Shown: positions 29,315 through 36,039 of the stretch, one piece after another
How positions within the stretch are numbered: position 1 is the first letter of the stretch
Layout of the letters: every line of letters starts with the position of its first letter
NCBI RefSeq assembly: GCF_016429285.1
Contig: NZ_JAELUI010000032.1
Coordinates: 1-45,533, forward strand
Source of the DNA: Ralstonia sp. ASV6
GTDB taxonomy: Bacteria > Pseudomonadota > Gammaproteobacteria > Burkholderiales > Burkholderiaceae
Direction: 5' to 3'
DNA: 45,533 nucleotides
Position numbers and translations under genes: made by a program
Notes under the pieces: model-generated
What the model was told of the DNA's origin: nothing
What the model saw: the letters and a program-made list of their open reading frames with translations, nothing else
Databases searched by the model: none

Positions 29315-30019
29315 TCAAGCGCGGGCGTTGGCTTCCGACATCACGCGGATGCTGCGCTCGATGCGGATCTGCACGATCAGCATCACCAGCATGATGAACG
29401 CCGAGAACAGTGCGGCAATCATGTACAGCGAGATATAGACGCCCGAGCGCTTGCCGCTGGCATCCAGCTTGGCTTCATCCTTCGCGTTGGAGATGCGCTC
29501 CTTCTCGGTGGCGTAGGCCATGTGGTAGTCCACAAACACCTTGTTGACGATCGCGTAGAACGCTTCGCTCGTCTTGGCTTGCTTGGCCACGTCGGCACGG
29601 CCCAGCACTTGGTCCAGATACGCCGTTTGCGAGGTCAGGAACGGCTCGCCCTGGTCGGGGTCTTCCAGCGCACCGACCACCAGTTCATGCACTTCCGCCT
29701 TGTCGAACTGGAACGATGCACCCAGCAACGCCTTGCCATGCTTGTTGATGACGTCAGCCAGTGCCGCTTCCAGCTTGGCCGCACCGGGATGCGGCTTGGC
29801 AGCGTCATCGCTCGCACCCTCTGCCGCTTCGTCGTCGAGCTTGAAGGCCGAGGCCTTGATGTCGATGGCTTCCGAGACAGGCGCCGGCTTGGCGTTGTAG
29901 TCGCTCACCGCGTTCACGCCCAGCAACACCACGCCCACCAGCACGACCGTTGCCAGCGCCAGCACCAGAATCCGCATCAGTTGCAGATAACCACTTTCGA
30001 CCTTATTGAGAACGCTCAT
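29315..30019 (-). CDS. Two-span hypothetical membrane protein (234 aa)
   Basis: It begins MSVLNKVESGYLQLMRILVLAL, with one transmembrane helix at about residues 14-38, a periplasmic or cytoplasmic middle domain of about 160 residues rich in Ala, Asp, Glu and Lys, and a second helix near residues 195-218 (YISLYMIAALFSAFIMLVMLIVQI), ending in a short basic tail (RIERSIRVMSEANARA). The middle domain is mostly helical (KLEAALADVINKHGKALLG, EAFYAIVNKVFVDYH). The topology (helix, domain, helix) suggests a periplasmic sensor-like loop, but no known domain is recognised. It is monocistronic with a moderate ribosome-binding site (GGCAGGGAA). Confidence 0.82.
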   Translation of the reverse strand: MSVLNKVESGYLQLMRILVLALATVVLVGVVLLGVNAVSDYNAKPAPVSEAIDIKASAFKLDDEAAEGASDDAAKPHPGAAKLEAALADVINKHGKALLGASFQFDKAEVHELVVGALEDPDQGEPFLTSQTAYLDQVLGRADVAKQAKTSEAFYAIVNKVFVDYHMAYATEKERISNAKDEAKLDASGKRSGVYISLYMIAALFSAFIMLVMLIVQIRIERSIRVMSEANARA

Positions 30020-30088: not shown

Positions 30089-30595
30089 TTAGTGTGCGAG
30101 CGCCGCATCCAAGGTTTCTGGCGTAAGCAGGCCGCTTGATGCGTGGCGCGTGCCATCGGCACGCAGGATGATCGTGCGCGGCATCTCGCCTTGCCAGCCG
30201 GGGTCCAGCGCGGCACGCATGCGCTCGGGCATGGCCTCGGCATTGGCGTATTGCGGCGTGCGCGCGAGGCCGATCTTGCTATCACGCGCCAGTGGCGCCA
30301 GCGCGCGGTTCATCATGTCGGCCTGTTCCGGGCCGTCCATCGCCACCATCACCACATCCACGTTCTGTTTGGCAGTGTGCCGCCATTGCGCGATACGGCC
30401 GATGTTCTCACGGCAATAACTGCAATCGAGCGACCAGATCTCGACGATGAGCGGGCGAGCGCGCGGCGTCTGCAACAGCGTCGGCACATCACGCGCATGC
30501 AGCGGCTGGAAGTGCAGCGCTTCGGCCGCCTGCGCGGTGATAGCGGCAGCAAAGAGTGCCACCCCCATCGCCAACGTCTTCAAGCGGATGCTCAT
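30089..30595 (-). CDS. Exported thioredoxin/TlpA-like protein
   Basis: A 168-residue periplasmic protein. The signal peptide is clear (MSIRLKTLAMGVALFAAA, cleavage after AQA). The mature part has a thioredoxin-like core with the redox pair C58-S-Y-C61 in VEIWSLDCSYC and later the cis-Pro-like strand GEMPRTIILRADG. The segment PLIVEIWSLDCSYCRENIGRIAQW is typical of TlpA-type disulfide reductases or metallochaperone maintenance proteins. Its ATG overlaps the stop of the BNR protein gene (ATGA), so it is the translationally coupled last gene of the DUF2946-TonB receptor operon. It could keep the CxCC motif of its neighbour reduced; this is inference. Confidence 0.88.
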   Translation of the reverse strand: MSIRLKTLAMGVALFAAAITAQAAEALHFQPLHARDVPTLLQTPRARPLIVEIWSLDCSYCRENIGRIAQWRHTAKQNVDVVMVAMDGPEQADMMNRALAPLARDSKIGLARTPQYANAEAMPERMRAALDPGWQGEMPRTIILRADGTRHASSGLLTPETLDAALAH

Positions 30596-31854
30596 AGCGC
30601 AGCCTCCAGCGTCGCGTTGGCGGGAACGGCGCTGGTTACGTCGATCAGCCGATAGCCTTCGGCCTGCGTGCGCCACGACAGATAGATGTGACCATCGCGC
30701 GCGAGCAGTTGCGGATGGTCGCTGCCGCCATCGGTGCTTGCCAGGCTGACCGGCGCTGTCCAATGTGCGCCGCCGTCGGTCGACTTGCGCAGCAGGATCT
30801 GCATGTGGTCGTCGGCAAACTGCTTCCAGACGAGCCACAGCACGCCATCGGTGGCGAGCAGCGTCGGGTGCGATGCCTGCGCACCCGCTTGCGCGGAACC
30901 CGCAAATGCCCAGGCACCGCCAATCGGCCGGCCGTCCGCCGAGAGACGGCTGTAGAACAGCGCCGGCTTGTCCTGCTGCACCGAGAACCACGCCATGTGC
31001 CGTACACCATCGGCTGTCACAGCCAACGCTGGACCATGGTGCGGGCACGCATCCACACGCCACTCGGAGAACGTCGCACGCGTGATGGCAAACGGCGTGT
31101 TGTCGACGGGCAGGGTCGCCAGCGCGTGATCGCGAATCTGCCCGGCAAACACGTTGCGCCACAGCGCCAGCATGTGGCCGTTGGCATCCGGCGCCAGCGC
31201 AATGCGGCAGCACTCGCAGGTCTGGTCGATGACCTTGCGCTCAGGCGCGAACGTTGCGCCCCGGTCGGTAGAGACGGTGTAGTACACCGCCGCACCGTCA
31301 TACGGCTGCTTTGCCGCCTGCGCGCGCAGCAAGTCGCGCTTGTCGATCCACGTGACGAAGATGCGGCCCGCGCCGTCCACCGCAATCGAGTCAAAGCGGT
31401 GTGTGATCGGCTGGCGATCGTGGTGAACGATGATGGGCGCGCTCCACGTCCTGCCGCCGTCCAGCGAGCGCGAGAAGCGCACGTAGCCCGTGTATGGCGC
31501 ATCGAGCGGGCGCGACCAGCTCACGTATAGCGCGCCATCTGGGCTGGCGATCACCTTCGGCCGGTTCTCGCCGTCGGTGTAGATCGGCTCAGGCTGCGGG
31601 TTGATGCGCTGCGGCTTGGAGAGCGTCTTGCCCAGGTCATCGGACGAAGCGACCACCACGTGCTGCCCCTCGGCCCAGGTCACCCACAGCTTGCCCGCTT
31701 TGTCGAACGCGGCCGTGGTGGCGAGTTGCGGCTTGGCAGCGGCCTTGCCGGCCATGCCACCGTGCTCGTGCCCTTCGTGTGCCGGGGCCAGGGTGCTTGC
31801 CAACGCCAGCAGAAGACCTGCCGCCCATCGGGACAGCTGAGAAATCGAGTGCAT
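30592..31854 (-). CDS. Secreted BNR/sialidase-fold protein with CxCC and His-rich N-terminus
   Basis: A 420-residue exported protein. The signal peptide starts MHSISQLSRWAAGLLLALAS and is cut before or near HEGHEHGG, so the mature N-terminus is His-rich. A six-bladed propeller is suggested by BNR Asp-box repeats (SLDGGRTWSAP, STDRGATFAPE, STDGGAHWTAP and a degenerate SDDLGKTLS). A conspicuous C213-E-C215-C216 motif lies mid-protein in IDQTCECCRIAL. True sialidase catalytic residues are not evident, so an enzyme call would be unsafe. The start at 31854 overlaps the receptor stop by one base (TAATG); an ATG at 31866 is an alternative. The context points to metal or ligand handling in the periplasm. 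Confidence 0.85.
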   Translation of the reverse strand: MHSISQLSRWAAGLLLALASTLAPAHEGHEHGGMAGKAAAKPQLATTAAFDKAGKLWVTWAEGQHVVVASSDDLGKTLSKPQRINPQPEPIYTDGENRPKVIASPDGALYVSWSRPLDAPYTGYVRFSRSLDGGRTWSAPIIVHHDRQPITHRFDSIAVDGAGRIFVTWIDKRDLLRAQAAKQPYDGAAVYYTVSTDRGATFAPERKVIDQTCECCRIALAPDANGHMLALWRNVFAGQIRDHALATLPVDNTPFAITRATFSEWRVDACPHHGPALAVTADGVRHMAWFSVQQDKPALFYSRLSADGRPIGGAWAFAGSAQAGAQASHPTLLATDGVLWLVWKQFADDHMQILLRKSTDGGAHWTAPVSLASTDGGSDHPQLLARDGHIYLSWRTQAEGYRLIDVTSAVPANATLEAAL

Positions 31855-34172
31855 TACAGACGCCATTTCAGTTGCCCATAGAACGTGCGCGACGGATACG
31901 GGTGGTACACGAAATACTTCCGATCGGTCAGGTTGTCGACGCCAAGCGCCAGCGTGAAGTGCTTGTCGATGCGATAGCTGGCTTTCAGATCCACCGTGAA
32001 GAAGCTGCTGGTGCCGCCATAGACGTTGGGCAGCACATCGGTGTTGTCGAGCGTGCCGTATTGCCGGCCCGAATAGCGTACACCCGCGCCCACCGTCCAG
32101 TCCGGCGTGGCATGCCAACTCGCGAATAGGTTGGCGCGTACGCGCGGCATACGCGGCCAGGTCTTGTCGACGTAGGTGGGGTTGGCGGCATCGGCCAGCG
32201 TTTTAGATTGCGTGAAGGCCACATTGGCTTCCACGTCGACACCGCGCACGCCCAAGTCATGCAGCACGTTCTGCCCCGAATAGGCCAGTTCGATACCACG
32301 CGTGCGCACGCGGTCGACGTTCTGCACGTTGGTCACGTTGGGCGTGACCAGGATGTTGGTCTGCGTGTAGATGCTGTCGCGCACGTCGCTCTGGAACAGG
32401 CTGGTGCGCAGCGTGCCGTAGGGCACGGCCTGCTCGACGGTGAAGTCGAAATCGTTGGCACGCTCGGGCTTGAGGTTCGGGTCGTTGTTGACGATGGTGT
32501 TGCCGCTGATCGTGCCCTGGAACAACTCCGCCACCGTCGGGAAGCGCACCGCACGGCCATACGACAGGCGCAGTAACGTGTCTTGCGTGGCCTGCCATTG
32601 CAACGCGGCCTTGGGGCTGAACGCGTCTTCGGTGCGGCTGGCATAGCCCAGCGTGGTGCCGCCATTGCCGAGCTGGCCGTTGTAGGCACGCCAGCTTTCA
32701 TAGCGCAGGCCGAGCGTTGCCAGCCAGCGCGGCGCAAAAGCCCACGCGTCCTGCAGGAAGACGGCCTGCGTCTGTGTATCACCCTGGTAGCTGGACTTGA
32801 GCGTTGAGAGTGCCTCGGTCGACCAGTTCGTCGCATTGAACGTCTGGTTGCGCAGGTGATACTGGTCGTAGTGGTAGCCGGTAGTGAAAGTGTGGCCGGA
32901 CACCGTGGGCGAGATGGCCTTCACGTCGAAGTTGGACCAGCCCGTGCCATCGCCGTAGAACACCGTGCCGGGGCCGTTGCCGGCAGCCGTGTTGGAAGCA
33001 CGCAGGATGTCGCGCGTGACGTTGTAGGCCGACGCGTTGGCGTCAATCTTCCAGCCACCCAGCTTGCCCTTGACCCCCAGGCCATAGAGCCAGTTTTCCT
33101 GGTCGCCGTTCTGCGGGGCGAAGCTGTTCTGGGCGATGGTGTACGGCGTACCGTTGATGAGCACGTTGCCACCCGTGACGACGTTGCCGGCCGCATCGCG
33201 CAGGAAGCTCAGAGCCTGATCGTTGTAATGGTTCTCCCAGTGGCCGAGCGTGAGTGAAGCCTCGAGACTGTCGCTGAAGACATAGCCCATGCGCAGCGTC
33301 TCTTGCAGTTGCTGCGTGCGCTCCAGCATCTGCGGCCCGAGAATCACGCGCGGCAGGCCATTGGGACCGAGGTCTTGCTTGGCGCCCGTCACAGGCACTG
33401 GCGTGCCCCCCGGGGTGAACCTGGAATTGGGCGTGGCGTACTGCATCGGCTGGCTGTCGTTCTCCAGCCGGTCGACCGACAGCGCGTACCAGAACTTGCC
33501 GATGCGATCGCCCAGCGATGCGCTCTCGTGGTTGCCGGTGACGTTGCGCGAGAACCCGTACGCATCGCTGAAGCGCTGGCTCATCACCTGCGTCTGCGCC
33601 GCGGCCTCGAAGGTCTCGGGCTTGCGCAACGTCATCGAGATGGTCGTGCCCATCGAGTTGCCTGGCAGCAACGCCGAGAACGGTCCATACAAAATATCGA
33701 CGCGCGCCAAATCATCCGGCCCGACCATTGACCAGCGCGGCGGATAGCTGTAGCTGGAGCCCAGCAAGTTCGAGAGCAGGATGCCGTCGGCATACAGCAG
33801 GCCGCGTGCGCTCTGGATCTCGTTGAAATCGCGGCCGGCAAAGATGGAGTTGCGATCACCAATGAAGCGGCGGCGCACCATCACATTGGGCTGGTACTTG
33901 ACGGCGTCTTCGGTGGTGACGACGTTGCGGTCGGCCAGTTGGTCAGCGGTGACGGTCTGCACCACGGCAGGCGTGTTACGGGCGAATGGCGCGGGTGCGG
34001 CGTTGGCGCGCACCACGGTGGGCGCGAGTTCCTGGGCGACGAGCGCGGGGGCCTGCGCAGTATCGTCGGCGGCAAAAGTGGACAGCGGTGCCGCTGCGCT
34101 CAAGGCGAGCGCAGCACGGCACATCAGCGAGCGCTTGGGGCGGGCAGCCGCAGCGCGCTTGTGGAATGACAT
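31854..34172 (-). CDS. TonB-dependent outer-membrane receptor (probable metal/metal-complex uptake)
   Basis: A 772-residue receptor. Signal peptide with cleavage near STFA-ADDT, TonB-box-like LAPTVVRA at about residues 49-56, a plug domain (VTTEDAVKYQPNVMVRRRFIGDRNSIFAGRDF, YGPFSALLPGNSMGTTI) and a 22-strand type barrel ending NLTDRKYFVYHPYPSRTFYGQLKWRL with the terminal aromatic signature. GGAG lies 8 nt before the ATG. The ligand is not readable directly. The DUF2946 gene upstream and the CxCC/His-rich and thioredoxin-like genes downstream favour copper over a siderophore; this is inference from gene neighbourhood. Confidence 0.93.
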   Translation of the reverse strand: MSFHKRAAAARPKRSLMCRAALALSAAAPLSTFAADDTAQAPALVAQELAPTVVRANAAPAPFARNTPAVVQTVTADQLADRNVVTTEDAVKYQPNVMVRRRFIGDRNSIFAGRDFNEIQSARGLLYADGILLSNLLGSSYSYPPRWSMVGPDDLARVDILYGPFSALLPGNSMGTTISMTLRKPETFEAAAQTQVMSQRFSDAYGFSRNVTGNHESASLGDRIGKFWYALSVDRLENDSQPMQYATPNSRFTPGGTPVPVTGAKQDLGPNGLPRVILGPQMLERTQQLQETLRMGYVFSDSLEASLTLGHWENHYNDQALSFLRDAAGNVVTGGNVLINGTPYTIAQNSFAPQNGDQENWLYGLGVKGKLGGWKIDANASAYNVTRDILRASNTAAGNGPGTVFYGDGTGWSNFDVKAISPTVSGHTFTTGYHYDQYHLRNQTFNATNWSTEALSTLKSSYQGDTQTQAVFLQDAWAFAPRWLATLGLRYESWRAYNGQLGNGGTTLGYASRTEDAFSPKAALQWQATQDTLLRLSYGRAVRFPTVAELFQGTISGNTIVNNDPNLKPERANDFDFTVEQAVPYGTLRTSLFQSDVRDSIYTQTNILVTPNVTNVQNVDRVRTRGIELAYSGQNVLHDLGVRGVDVEANVAFTQSKTLADAANPTYVDKTWPRMPRVRANLFASWHATPDWTVGAGVRYSGRQYGTLDNTDVLPNVYGGTSSFFTVDLKASYRIDKHFTLALGVDNLTDRKYFVYHPYPSRTFYGQLKWRL

Positions 34173-34267
34173 CGGGTGGTCTCCGGATTGCGATGGCGCC
34201 GGCCATGAACACGAACATGCGTGCGGCCAGACGCAAAGGCGCCGCGAGGCTCAACCCCGCAGGCGCA

Positions 34268-34678
34268 TCAGATCGACAACGACGGAGATGCAGGAGGCGC
34301 GCGCGACTCGGCCACGCGCAGCGCACTGCGCGCATACACGGGTGCCGGGCTGGCCGGCTGCCGCACGCGATAGATGAAATGGGCGGTAGGAACATCCAGC
34401 GCCGGCGGCGAGGCCAGCGCAAACCCGGCGGCAAACCCCGGGCAATACAAGCAGTGCGCCACGCTGTGGTGGGCAGCCGGATCACCGGACGGATCGTTGG
34501 AGCCATTGCCTTGCAGGTCAATGGACACCTGTACCGTGCTGCCATGCGGTGCCGTTGCGCTGCACAGGTCAATGGCGAGCGTGCCCGTGGCTGCCGCGCG
34601 TGCGGAAGCGAGCACCGGCGACAGTACATTCAGTACGATCGCAAGCCAGACGAGAGCGAGCCAGCGGCGATGGAGCAT
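34268..34678 (-). CDS. DUF2946 small protein, possible copper-responsive leader (CruR-like)
   Basis: A 136-residue protein from the ATG at 34678. It has a hydrophobic signal-like N-terminus (MLHRRWLALVWLAIVLNVL) and the DUF2946 centre H70-H71-x3-H75-C76-x2-C79 in HHSVAHCLYCPGFAAGF. In Bordetella, a DUF2946 ORF upstream of a TonB-receptor gene (CruR) controls the downstream genes in response to copper through its CxxC motif; I recall this from the literature. Here the gene is first in the operon, 95 bp ahead of the receptor. A longer GTG start at 34759 is unlikely. TATACT at 34703-34708 would give a very short leader, fitting a regulatory first ORF. Confidence 0.85.
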   Translation of the reverse strand: MLHRRWLALVWLAIVLNVLSPVLASARAAATGTLAIDLCSATAPHGSTVQVSIDLQGNGSNDPSGDPAAHHSVAHCLYCPGFAAGFALASPPALDVPTAHFIYRVRQPASPAPVYARSALRVAESRAPPASPSLSI

Positions 34679-34802
34679 GGGGTGGGACGGTGGAGTCCGG
34701 GGAGTATAGCGCTGCACATGGTTCCCCGTTTTGCCTGCGACGTACTGTCGCGCATGCACAAACTGTGTCGATCCGGTTGCAGTCCGTCCGGATTTATCCT
34801 TA

Positions 34803-34854: not shown

Positions 34855-36039
34855 ATGGCATCCACCGATTCCGACACCGGCCGCTTCAACTTCCACCGTC
34901 AGGACCTCGCCCACACGCTGTGCGACAGCCTGGAGGGCAAGGGCCTGGCCGATGCGCGCTCCGGCCTGTTCCTGGCGGCGCCCCGGCGCACCGGCAAGAG
35001 CACGTTCCTGCGCGAAGACCTCGTGCCGGAGGTCGAGCGCCGTAAATGGATCTCCATCTACGTCGACCTGTGGGCCGACCGCGCCCGCGACCCCGGCCTG
35101 CTGATTGCCGATGCCATCAAGTCCAAGCTGGCCGAGTTCGACGGGCCGATCGCCAAGCTCGCCAAACAGGCCGGCATGGAGAAGGTCGAGGTACTGCGCG
35201 CCTTCACCTTCAACCTGGGCAAGATCGGGCTGCCGCAGGGCATTACCCTGGCCGATGCGCTGGATGTGCTCTACAAGGCAGTGCAGCGGCCGATCGTGCT
35301 GATCATCGACGAGGCGCAGCACGCGCTGTCGACCGAGGCAGGCACCAACGCCATGTTCGCGCTCAAGGCCGCGCGCGACCAGATGAACCAGGGCGTTGAG
35401 GAACCGCGTCTGTTTCTGGTTTTTACGGGCTCCAACCGCGACAAGCTCGCCAACCTGCTGCTCAATCGCACGCAGCCATTCTTCGGCTCGCGCGTGACCA
35501 ACTTCCCGCTGCTCGGCCGCGCCTATGTGTCGGCCTATACCGCGTGGGTCAACCAGCACTTGGCGCCCAACAACCAGTTCAAGGAAGACGACATCTTTGC
35601 CGCCTTCCAGCTGGTCGGACACCGGCCGGAGATGCTCAAGGGCATCGTCAGCGAGATCGCGCTGGAACTGGGCGAGGCCGCCAGCCTGGGCGAGCTGCTC
35701 AAGCGCGGCGCACAGGGCTTTCGTGACCGCATCTGGGGCGAAATCGAAAGCGAATACAGCGCCTTGACCGAAATCCAGCGCGCCGTGCTGGCGGTGCTGA
35801 TCGAGCGCGGGCAAGGCTACTCACCGTTCTCGGAGGACGCGATGAAAGCCTACGCCGCCCGCCTGGGCCACAGTGATTTCTCCACCGCCACGGTGCAAGC
35901 CGCACTCGACGCGCTGCGCGACAAGAACCTGATCTGGAAGGAGTCGCGCGGCGCGTATGCGCTGGAAGACGAAAGCCTGGCGCTGTGGTTTCGCGAAACG
36001 CGCGGCGCGCACGCCGTACCGCCCAAGCTGGGTGCCTAG
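34855..36039 (+). CDS. AAA-type ATPase with C-terminal winged helix
   Basis: A 394-residue cytoplasmic protein. Walker A is FLAAPRRTGKSTFL (about residues 39-52) and Walker B is PIVLIIDEAQHAL (about 145-157), followed by a sensor-1-like FLVFTGSNRDKLANLLLN. This resembles the archaeal-ATPase/ExeA/STAND-like group rather than AAA+ proteases. Residues about 300-385 (TEIQRAVLAVLIERGQGYSPF, then AALDALRDKNLIWKESRGAYAL) read as a winged helix. No membrane segment or nuclease domain is present. It is followed 2 bp later by a GlxA-type regulator, implying co-expression. The role is unknown; DNA-linked regulation or loading are possibilities. Confidence 0.85.
   Translation: MASTDSDTGRFNFHRQDLAHTLCDSLEGKGLADARSGLFLAAPRRTGKSTFLREDLVPEVERRKWISIYVDLWADRARDPGLLIADAIKSKLAEFDGPIAKLAKQAGMEKVEVLRAFTFNLGKIGLPQGITLADALDVLYKAVQRPIVLIIDEAQHALSTEAGTNAMFALKAARDQMNQGVEEPRLFLVFTGSNRDKLANLLLNRTQPFFGSRVTNFPLLGRAYVSAYTAWVNQHLAPNNQFKEDDIFAAFQLVGHRPEMLKGIVSEIALELGEAASLGELLKRGAQGFRDRIWGEIESEYSALTEIQRAVLAVLIERGQGYSPFSEDAMKAYAARLGHSDFSTATVQAALDALRDKNLIWKESRGAYALEDESLALWFRETRGAHAVPPKLGA

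Follow-up and report, generated by a model that had tools for sequence, protein, structure and literature searches.

A CruR-type leader heads a conserved transporter, BNR protein and thioredoxin-like operon in Ralstonia sp. ASV6, a candidate copper-starvation import system

The closest described counterpart of the locus reported here is the CruR-CrtA(BfrG)-CrpH operon of Bordetella pertussis, a copper-repressed system of copper import for respiration (PMC9426467, PMC12914433, PMC13038864). Its leader open reading frame (ORF), CruR, is recognised by a CxxC and a RAPP motif about 45 residues apart; it was proposed that the ribosome stalls at RAPP without copper, with the operon on, and that copper, sensed by the CxxC of the nascent chain, lifts the stall, the operon then going off via Rho-dependent termination (PMC9426467). 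CxxC is required for the copper response, RAPP mutants have the operon off even without copper (PMC9426467), and later in vitro work demonstrated that the ribosome arrests at the two Pro codons (PMC12992588). We analysed 45,533 nucleotides of Ralstonia sp. ASV6 (contig NZ_JAELUI010000032.1, positions 1 to 45,533; hereafter the window), where a CxxC/RAPP leader of the DUF2946 family likewise precedes a TonB-dependent transporter (TBDT), here followed by a BNR protein and a thioredoxin-like protein. We consider it probable that these four genes form a conserved operon for outer-membrane copper import under copper starvation, in which a CruR arrest peptide works a switch between the tail of the leader and the Shine-Dalgarno (SD) sequence of the next gene, and the last two proteins handle copper.

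Other described systems also bear on the locus. The pcuABCDE operon of Bradyrhizobium japonicum, which is induced by copper starvation and is mentioned in PMC9426467, PMC12617631 and PMC8424229, joins a TBDT with PCuAC, a YcnI-like protein and a membrane protein. In CutF-CutO of Rhodobacter capsulatus the leader is of the DUF2946 family and its stalling affects a structure in which the next SD is hidden (PMC9973294); copper increases expression in that system, which has a CxxxC sensor, whereas in the window copper should lower expression and the sensor is CxxC. With SecM-secA and RAPP arrest peptides, the downstream SD is sequestered in a helix, which the arrested ribosome opens (PMC10987492); the signal for CruR is copper, not secretion, and the anti-SD would occupy the codons that immediately follow the arrest site. 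OprC (TIGR01778) is a copper-linked TBDT that sometimes stands behind cruR.

A sequence-only reading had placed four minus-strand genes here, and all four ORFs were located, as were the elements of the leader:

34268..34678 (-), cruR-like DUF2946 leader ORF, 136 aa; ATG at 34678, stop ending at 34268
31854..34172 (-), TBDT gene, 772 aa; Plug and beta-barrel domains above cut-off
30592..31854 (-), BNR protein gene, 420 aa; product presumably secreted, propeller-like, with CxCC
30089..30595 (-), gene for a putative TlpA-like thioredoxin-fold protein, 168 aa, with WSLDCSYC
34442..34453 (-), CLYC, leader residues 76-79, presumed copper sensor; CxxC-RAPP spacing 46
34292..34303 (-), RAPP arrest motif, leader residues 126-129
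34273..34288 (-), putative anti-SD arm in the cruR tail, codons after RAPP; duplex with the SD region -14.5 kcal/mol
34180..34193 (-), complementary arm with the TBDT SD CGGAGA (34185-34180)

The motifs named in that reading were recovered as well: HHSVAHCLYC in the DUF2946 translation, a His-rich start (HEGHEHGG near the N terminus) and CECC at residues 213-216 in the third product, and CSYC in the 168-aa fourth product. It had also described the four genes as joined by overlaps, with the DUF2946 ORF 95 bp before the receptor gene. The one-base TAATG overlap of the TBDT and BNR genes and the four-base ATGA overlap of the BNR and thioredoxin-like genes are real, and they link no more than the last three genes; the TBDT ATG is separated from the DUF2946 stop by a gap of 95 nt, against 162 nt in the Bordetella operon.

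By domain, motif pair and position, the DUF2946 ORF qualifies as a CruR-type leader. Its product matches PF11162 with 53.7 bits (cut-off 23.7), has a hydrophobic N terminus visible in translation (signal peptides were assessed by eye), and ends with CLYC, 46 residues, RAPP and the 7-residue tail ASPSLSI; it is the first gene and is followed by the long spacer. Among Ralstonia both Pro codons of RAPP vary synonymously while RAPP itself is kept, and the ratio of nonsynonymous to synonymous substitution rates (dN/dS) of cruR is 0.16-0.30 against 7 Ralstonia relatives. Other CruR-like leaders carry RAPP variants: QAPP (loci L042, L047, L108, L141), QEPP (L063, L065), AAPP (L075, L238), RDPP (L092) and LDPP (L202). 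The proposal of a copper-responsive operon is thus supported by its leader, in which the arrest motif had been overlooked; and because CruR switches the Bordetella operon off with copper, induction by copper starvation is the expected sign of the response.

When the spacers of four Ralstonia sequences were folded, the best structure each time paired the post-RAPP codons with the TBDT SD; in the window, UCUCCG...UUGUCGAU pairs with AUCGCAAUCCGGAGA. Against shuffles, the fold energy gave a z of -0.23 in the window and of -2.58, -2.08 and -1.87 in the other three. For a wider comparison we assembled, from the fetched loci, every ORF that has CxxC and ends in RAPP or a variant of it, together with any next gene within 200 nt, which gave 66 pairs and 44 representatives; the tail was taken from the P-site Pro codon to the stop, and start codons of the next genes were chosen by script. 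Mean tail-SD duplex energy was -10.76 kcal/mol, against -7.59 (standard deviation (sd) 0.34) with SD regions swapped among the 44 loci (z -9.35; 0 of 20,000 permutations as low), and swaps within GC quartiles only still gave z values of -7.40 and -7.46. Watson-Crick helices of at least 7 pairs occurred at 13 of the 44 loci, where about 1.9 were expected.

The signal is confined to one place. In a scan of 14-nt segments covering -75 to +76 relative to the P-site codon (42 representatives) a single peak appeared, with starts from -3 to +12 and its deepest value, -3.03 (standard error 0.53), at +3 to +16; elsewhere no segment went beyond about 0.6 either way. An arrested ribosome covers about 15 nt past the first P-site base, and the outer segments of the peak extend to +25, somewhat past this footprint. 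Since a ribosome arrested at RAPP would thus cover roughly the putative anti-SD region, arrest without copper would free the SD. Ordinary neighbouring gene pairs from the same loci (150 of 325 representatives) gave z -1.34. Drawn in subsets of 44, these ordinary pairs differed by -0.27 on average (sd 0.34, lowest -1.02); the GC-matched value for CruR is -2.66. Within loci, the tail outdid other segments of cruR at 20 of 44 (p <= 0.1; Kolmogorov-Smirnov (KS) 1e-9) and segments of the next gene at 16 of 44 (p <= 0.1; KS 3e-7).

Individual duplexes differ in sequence from lineage to lineage, for example CCUGAAAACGU/ACGUUUUCAGG in the Burkholderia-type L036, CUUCCUGA/UCAGGAAG in L190 and CUCAAUC/GAUUGAG in Methylopumilus (L141); within the genome that the window comes from, the operon of OprC type (L058) reaches -18.7. 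Seven of the 44 are weak (above -6 kcal/mol), namely L042, L047, L073, L075, L203 and one each at L233 and L239. Covariation among eight Ralstonia sequences was uninformative, with 98.1% of cells paired and no compensatory change, and among 15 Burkholderia sequences it was weak: there was one compensatory pair, and the share of paired cells was 93.9%, where shuffling gave 92.5% and sliding no more than 47.3%. Taken as a class across 44 loci, the comparisons suggest that CruR leaders carry, in the codons after RAPP, a complement of the next gene's SD that would act as a SecM-type sequestering switch. To judge from the literature matches listed, this complementarity is new; the term Shine-Dalgarno is absent from the searched text of PMC9426467 and PMC12992588.

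The order of the last three genes was followed in relatives through the BNR protein, homologues of which were found in 44 of 300 genomes of an order draw (E <= 1e-10, the window's own included) and in 16 of 398 of a phylum draw (E <= 1e-30); a scan of named genomes contributed the best 80 of 576 confirmed relatives, a sample biased towards the query. Taxa among the matches listed include Ralstonia, Burkholderia, Paraburkholderia, Cupriavidus, Rhodanobacteraceae, Methylophilaceae and others. Of the 43 other genomes in the order draw, 41 contributed larger regions, as did 13 phylum-draw places not already covered, and loci were counted if they had at least 3.5 kb upstream and at least 0.9 kb downstream; this left 36 of 41 loci in set A (order draw), 74 of 80 in set B (named genomes, best 80 of 576) and 13 of 13 in set C (phylum draw). 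A TBDT lay upstream in 31/36, 62/74 and 11/13 loci of sets A, B and C, a thioredoxin-like gene downstream in 34/36, 70/74 and 11/13, and CruR in 13/36, 33/74 and 9/13. These counts come from profiles made from members of the same loci, which favours close relatives; the TBDT profile may overlook distant TBDTs, for example in Luteibacter, and two of the CruR assignments are weak (L078, 0.0012; L233, 0.0038). ExbB/ExbD genes were near the block in 8/36, 5/74 (best 80 of 576) and 1/13 loci. Other genera, other families and at least one further class show this gene order too, which rules out chance adjacency.

Among Ralstonia the leader is constant: a CruR-type DUF2946 ORF heads the block in 8 of 8 sequences (the window and L081-L087). 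The nearest relatives among the matches listed are seven Ralstonia, including R. pickettii and R. soli, with BNR proteins 86-91% identical to the window's. A strict CxxC-R[AG]PP leader stands before the block in all seven named Ralstonia and in 18 of 19 Burkholderia/Paraburkholderia, the nineteenth (L092) having RDPP. Upstream of 29 TBDTs that lack CruR, no common leader ORF was recognised by eye. Several CruR-less Rhodanobacteraceae loci have the block just downstream of a regulator; one such regulator (L113:4662-5303) has its best NCBIfam match to ActR/PrrA/RegA (202 bits, cut-off 250), and a kinase (L235:2250-3515) matches ActS/PrrB/RegB (220 bits, cut-off 350). A redox link to respiration through such ActR/ActS-like neighbours is possible.

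The link to copper comes from relatives in which the block has gained company. We sought and found PCuAC, DUF1775/YcnI, CopCD and ExbBD genes beside it. PCuAC lies in or beside the block at 12 loci (L041, L055, L068 and L075 of set A, L145 of set B (best 80 of 576), and L227-L232 and L238 of set C), and CruR is present in 12 of 12; the twelve are not all independent, five (L227-L231) belonging to one genus. The order is CruR-PCuAC-TBDT-BNR-thioredoxin in L041, L055 and L145 and CruR-TBDT-BNR-thioredoxin-PCuAC in the other nine, and in L227, L230 and L231 the latter is followed by DUF1775/YcnI and CopCD (in L227, DUF2946 61.4, PCuAC 141.9, DUF1775 159.2, CopC 76.9 and CopD 86.9 bits by Pfam). 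These three relatives thus unite a set like that of pcuABCDE with the BNR and thioredoxin-like genes. Two further arrangements were seen: in L233 a weak CruR match precedes ExbB, ExbD and a TonB-like gene and then the BNR and thioredoxin-like genes, and in L239 a distant BNR gene directly follows a CruR variant with QGPP. The copper-import reading made from sequence alone therefore held up under synteny, with CruR in 8/8 Ralstonia and many other lineages and copper genes beside the block.

The window's operon is not itself a pcu operon. PCuAC is absent from it, and DUF1775 and CopCD do not adjoin it (these two were not searched for elsewhere in this genome); they are part of the operon in relatives only. 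BNR and thioredoxin-like proteins are reportedly not among the five pcu genes that Serventi is said to have described in 2012.

The TBDT, 37-95% identical to 44 others aligned, fits neither of the two copper-linked groups. Its match to OprC (TIGR01778) is 50.1 bits against a cut-off of 472.45, and its generic matches are heme and siderophore receptor models, all 20 listed scores being below their own cut-offs. For CrtA, the copper TBDT of Bordetella, the described site comprises Y130, W265, E337, Q356, H358 and R395, and changing H358 alone abolished function (PMC12914433). At a CruR locus from our DUF2946 draw (L207), the transporter T207 has each of E, Q, H and R displaced by the same -1 from CrtA, but not Y130 or W265; we take it for a CrtA and used it as a stand-in for the B. 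pertussis protein. The window's TBDT is 23.4% identical to T207 over 325 aa (E 1.5e-5), and it and 14 others of its group lack the loose E-QxH-R pattern; two ORFs other than TBDTs (T192, T204) matched that pattern as well.

Members of the same TBDT group also stand behind CruR without an adjoining BNR gene (T190, T196). At one locus (L202:4055-7930) a TBDT 44-46% identical to the window's follows the LDPP variant of CruR and is itself followed by PepSY_TM (251 bits), the usual partner of CrtA, which the window's operon replaces with the BNR and thioredoxin-like genes. Because PepSY_TM there occupies the place of these two genes, the pair and PepSY_TM look like alternative, interchangeable periplasmic partners.

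The BNR protein matches BNR_2 (PF13088) with 44.3 bits (cut-off 31.4), is under purifying selection (dN/dS 0.08-0.14 against 7 Ralstonia), and has two conserved Cys/His motifs:

31207..31218 (-), CECC, residues 213-216; C213, C215 and C216 invariant in 61/61
31036..31047 (-), CPHH, residues 270-273; C270 in 61/61, H272 in 49/61, H273 in 57/61

Seven of the 33 invariant columns among the 61 aligned sequences are H152, C213, C215, C216, C270, H286 and H329. In a second set of 42 that included distant members, the four Cys and H286 were again invariant, with H152 in 39/42 and H329 in 38/42. At least four His or Met occur within residues 16-60 in 49 of the 61. H152, C213, C270 and H329 are spaced by 61, 57 and 59 residues, about one blade each. 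Asp boxes lie at 130 and 195, and H152 and C213 lie 22 and 18 residues after them; the blades of sialidases begin their inner strand at about that distance past the Asp box. From this spacing and the boxes we infer a cluster of His and Cys around the pore of a propeller. Profile searches place the protein among sialidase-like propellers, with sialidase matches that span part of the chain only. RIP, a sialidase motif of the arginine triad, is absent from the window's protein and present in 1 of 61 aligned sequences, so membership in the sialidases (GH33) was rejected although the protein has the propeller; it is probably propeller-like with a predicted metal site, and not a sialidase. Distant plasmid-borne relatives carry a sialidase annotation. 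None of the literature matches listed describes the BNR protein as taking part in copper uptake.

With 22.5 bits, the best Pfam match of the thioredoxin-like protein, AhpC-TSA, stays under the cut-off of 26. The 39 sequences of its family share W-x3-CxxC and G-E-x-P, with W54, C58, C61, G136, E137 and P139 invariant, and their profile finds proteins of the thioredoxin fold (3raz, 1.1e-7; TlpA 1jfu, 1.5e-6). In rhizobia, proteins of the TlpA type reduce cysteines so that copper can be loaded, and the role proposed for this protein is modelled on them. The last two genes would encode a periplasmic binding protein with its own reductase.

Transcription of the operon may start from a candidate promoter element:

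34703..34708 (-), TATACT, possible -10 of the operon; CGCTATACT is the same in 8/8 Ralstonia sequences

TATACT is a candidate and not a mapped start, and no -35 was recognised near it by eye. Because this conserved box lies between them, the start ATG at 34678 was preferred over the upstream GTG at 34759. On the other side of cruR a divergent plus-strand gene (34855-36039) encodes an ATP-binding protein (by eye), to which a conserved TATAAT-like sequence in between probably belongs. Downstream, 69 nt from the thioredoxin-like gene, an ORF on the same strand (29315-30019, 234 aa) has a hydrophobic N-terminal stretch and gave no Pfam match at E 0.01.

The window's genome (5.9 Mb) has five DUF2946 matches at E <= 1e-3. 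A second CruR (HCPFC-45-RAPP; L056:3122-11911) has a TBDT on one side; the genes on its other side are for a MoeZ-type adenylyltransferase-rhodanese (623 bits, cut-off 647), a desampylase of JAMM-like kind, a CoA transferase of CaiB type and an acyl/DHB-AMP-ligase-like enzyme. The region resembles a locus for a thiocarboxylate metallophore controlled by copper. Named by eye, the others are a DUF2946 ORF with RGPP heading an OprC-like TBDT (L058:5174-7756), one heading an outer-membrane-like and a TlpA-like protein (L057:5486-7865), and one without RAPP heading a copper-resistance-looking set with a multicopper oxidase (L059:6001-10778).

Several observations weigh against a CruR-switched copper importer as the reading of this locus. 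The window's own tail-SD pairing is moderate: 0.05 and 0.11 against shuffles, 0.18 against other segments of cruR and 0.31 against SD-like segments, with a pairing probability of 0.18. Over the CruR loci, comparison with SD-like segments of the next gene left a marginal difference (10/44; KS 0.056, Fisher 0.008), and partition-function folding of 29 loci with the arrested ribosome's footprint masked gave no consistent rise in SD accessibility. CruR was not found at 6 Cupriavidus, 4 Methylotenera or the Rhodanobacteraceae loci of set B (best 80 of 576), so its control is inessential to the block. PCuAC is missing from the window's operon, the genome's two PCuAC genes being on other contigs; clades may import different ligands; and the four invariant Cys of the BNR protein could form disulfides.

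Part of this can be read as the same copper operon controlled by Rho-dependent termination only, the complementarity being a by-product of Pro/Ser codons that resemble an anti-SD. Rho-dependent termination is what was reported for B. pertussis (PMC9426467), and SD-like stretches inside genes pair with the tails almost equally well. Such a by-product sits poorly with a swap z of -7.4 that survives GC matching and with a lineage-specific signal at one position that 150 ordinary gene pairs do not reproduce, and in this cruR no clear C-over-G bubble was seen (C/G about 2 only at the start, in a look that is not conclusive); we find termination alone rather unlikely. It is more doubtful still that the block imports a siderophore or another non-copper metal complex and that CruR was recruited in some lineages only: the generic receptor matches and the many loci at which CruR was not found would suit this well enough, but those receptor scores all miss their cut-offs, copper genes join the operon in separate lineages, and the sensor in the window is of the CxxC type.

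The BNR protein, too, could be understood otherwise. An enzymatic role (as oxidase, isomerase or glycoside hydrolase) on the organic moiety of an imported copper complex, with the cysteines of the BNR protein reduced by the thioredoxin-like protein, would account for the BNR_2 and sialidase-like matches and for the 26 of 33 invariant columns that are neither Cys nor His (W169, D171, R173, R241 and D242 among them); the near-absence of RIP, the partial cover of the sialidase matches and the seven Cys/His columns make this an unlikely role. A purely structural one, with the four Cys as two disulfides and the thioredoxin-like protein as a DsbC/DsbE-like folding helper for the TBDT or the BNR protein, and no metal site, agrees with the match of the thioredoxin profile to general TlpA/ResA-like proteins. 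It leaves aside that H152, H286 and H329 are as invariant as the cysteines (61/61) and that H152, C213-216, C270 and H329 follow one another at about one blade, and we give it little credence.

From gene order, motifs, conservation, synteny with copper genes and the tail-SD complementarity across CruR loci, we infer copper binding, transport, a redox role and regulation in this strain along the following lines. When copper is scarce, the ribosome on the CruR leader would arrest at RAPP and cover the post-RAPP codons that otherwise pair with the TBDT SD, so that the TBDT, BNR and thioredoxin-like proteins are made. Copper bound to the nascent CxxC would relieve the arrest; the ribosome would leave, the pairing would form and expression would fall, to which Rho termination may add. 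This switch is consistent with the Bordetella RAPP mutants being off without copper, which the Rho model explains too, and SD sequestration and Rho termination may both act. The TBDT would import a copper complex, and the BNR protein would accept the copper in the periplasm through its pore His/Cys and its His/Met-rich N terminus. The thioredoxin-like protein may keep the BNR cysteines reduced or help pass copper on, and the metal would finally reach PCuAC/Sco and cytochrome oxidases.

For a broader claim, that CruR leaders as a group are SecM-like switches whose anti-SD is redrawn in each lineage, and that here one drives a new copper relay from TBDT to propeller chaperone and reductase and on to PCuAC and the oxidases, we see about an even chance. 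Bacterial copper uptake is poorly known, and this operon would provide a second importer set of wide distribution that includes two proteins of undescribed role; the tail-SD result amounts to a testable prediction for the whole CruR class.

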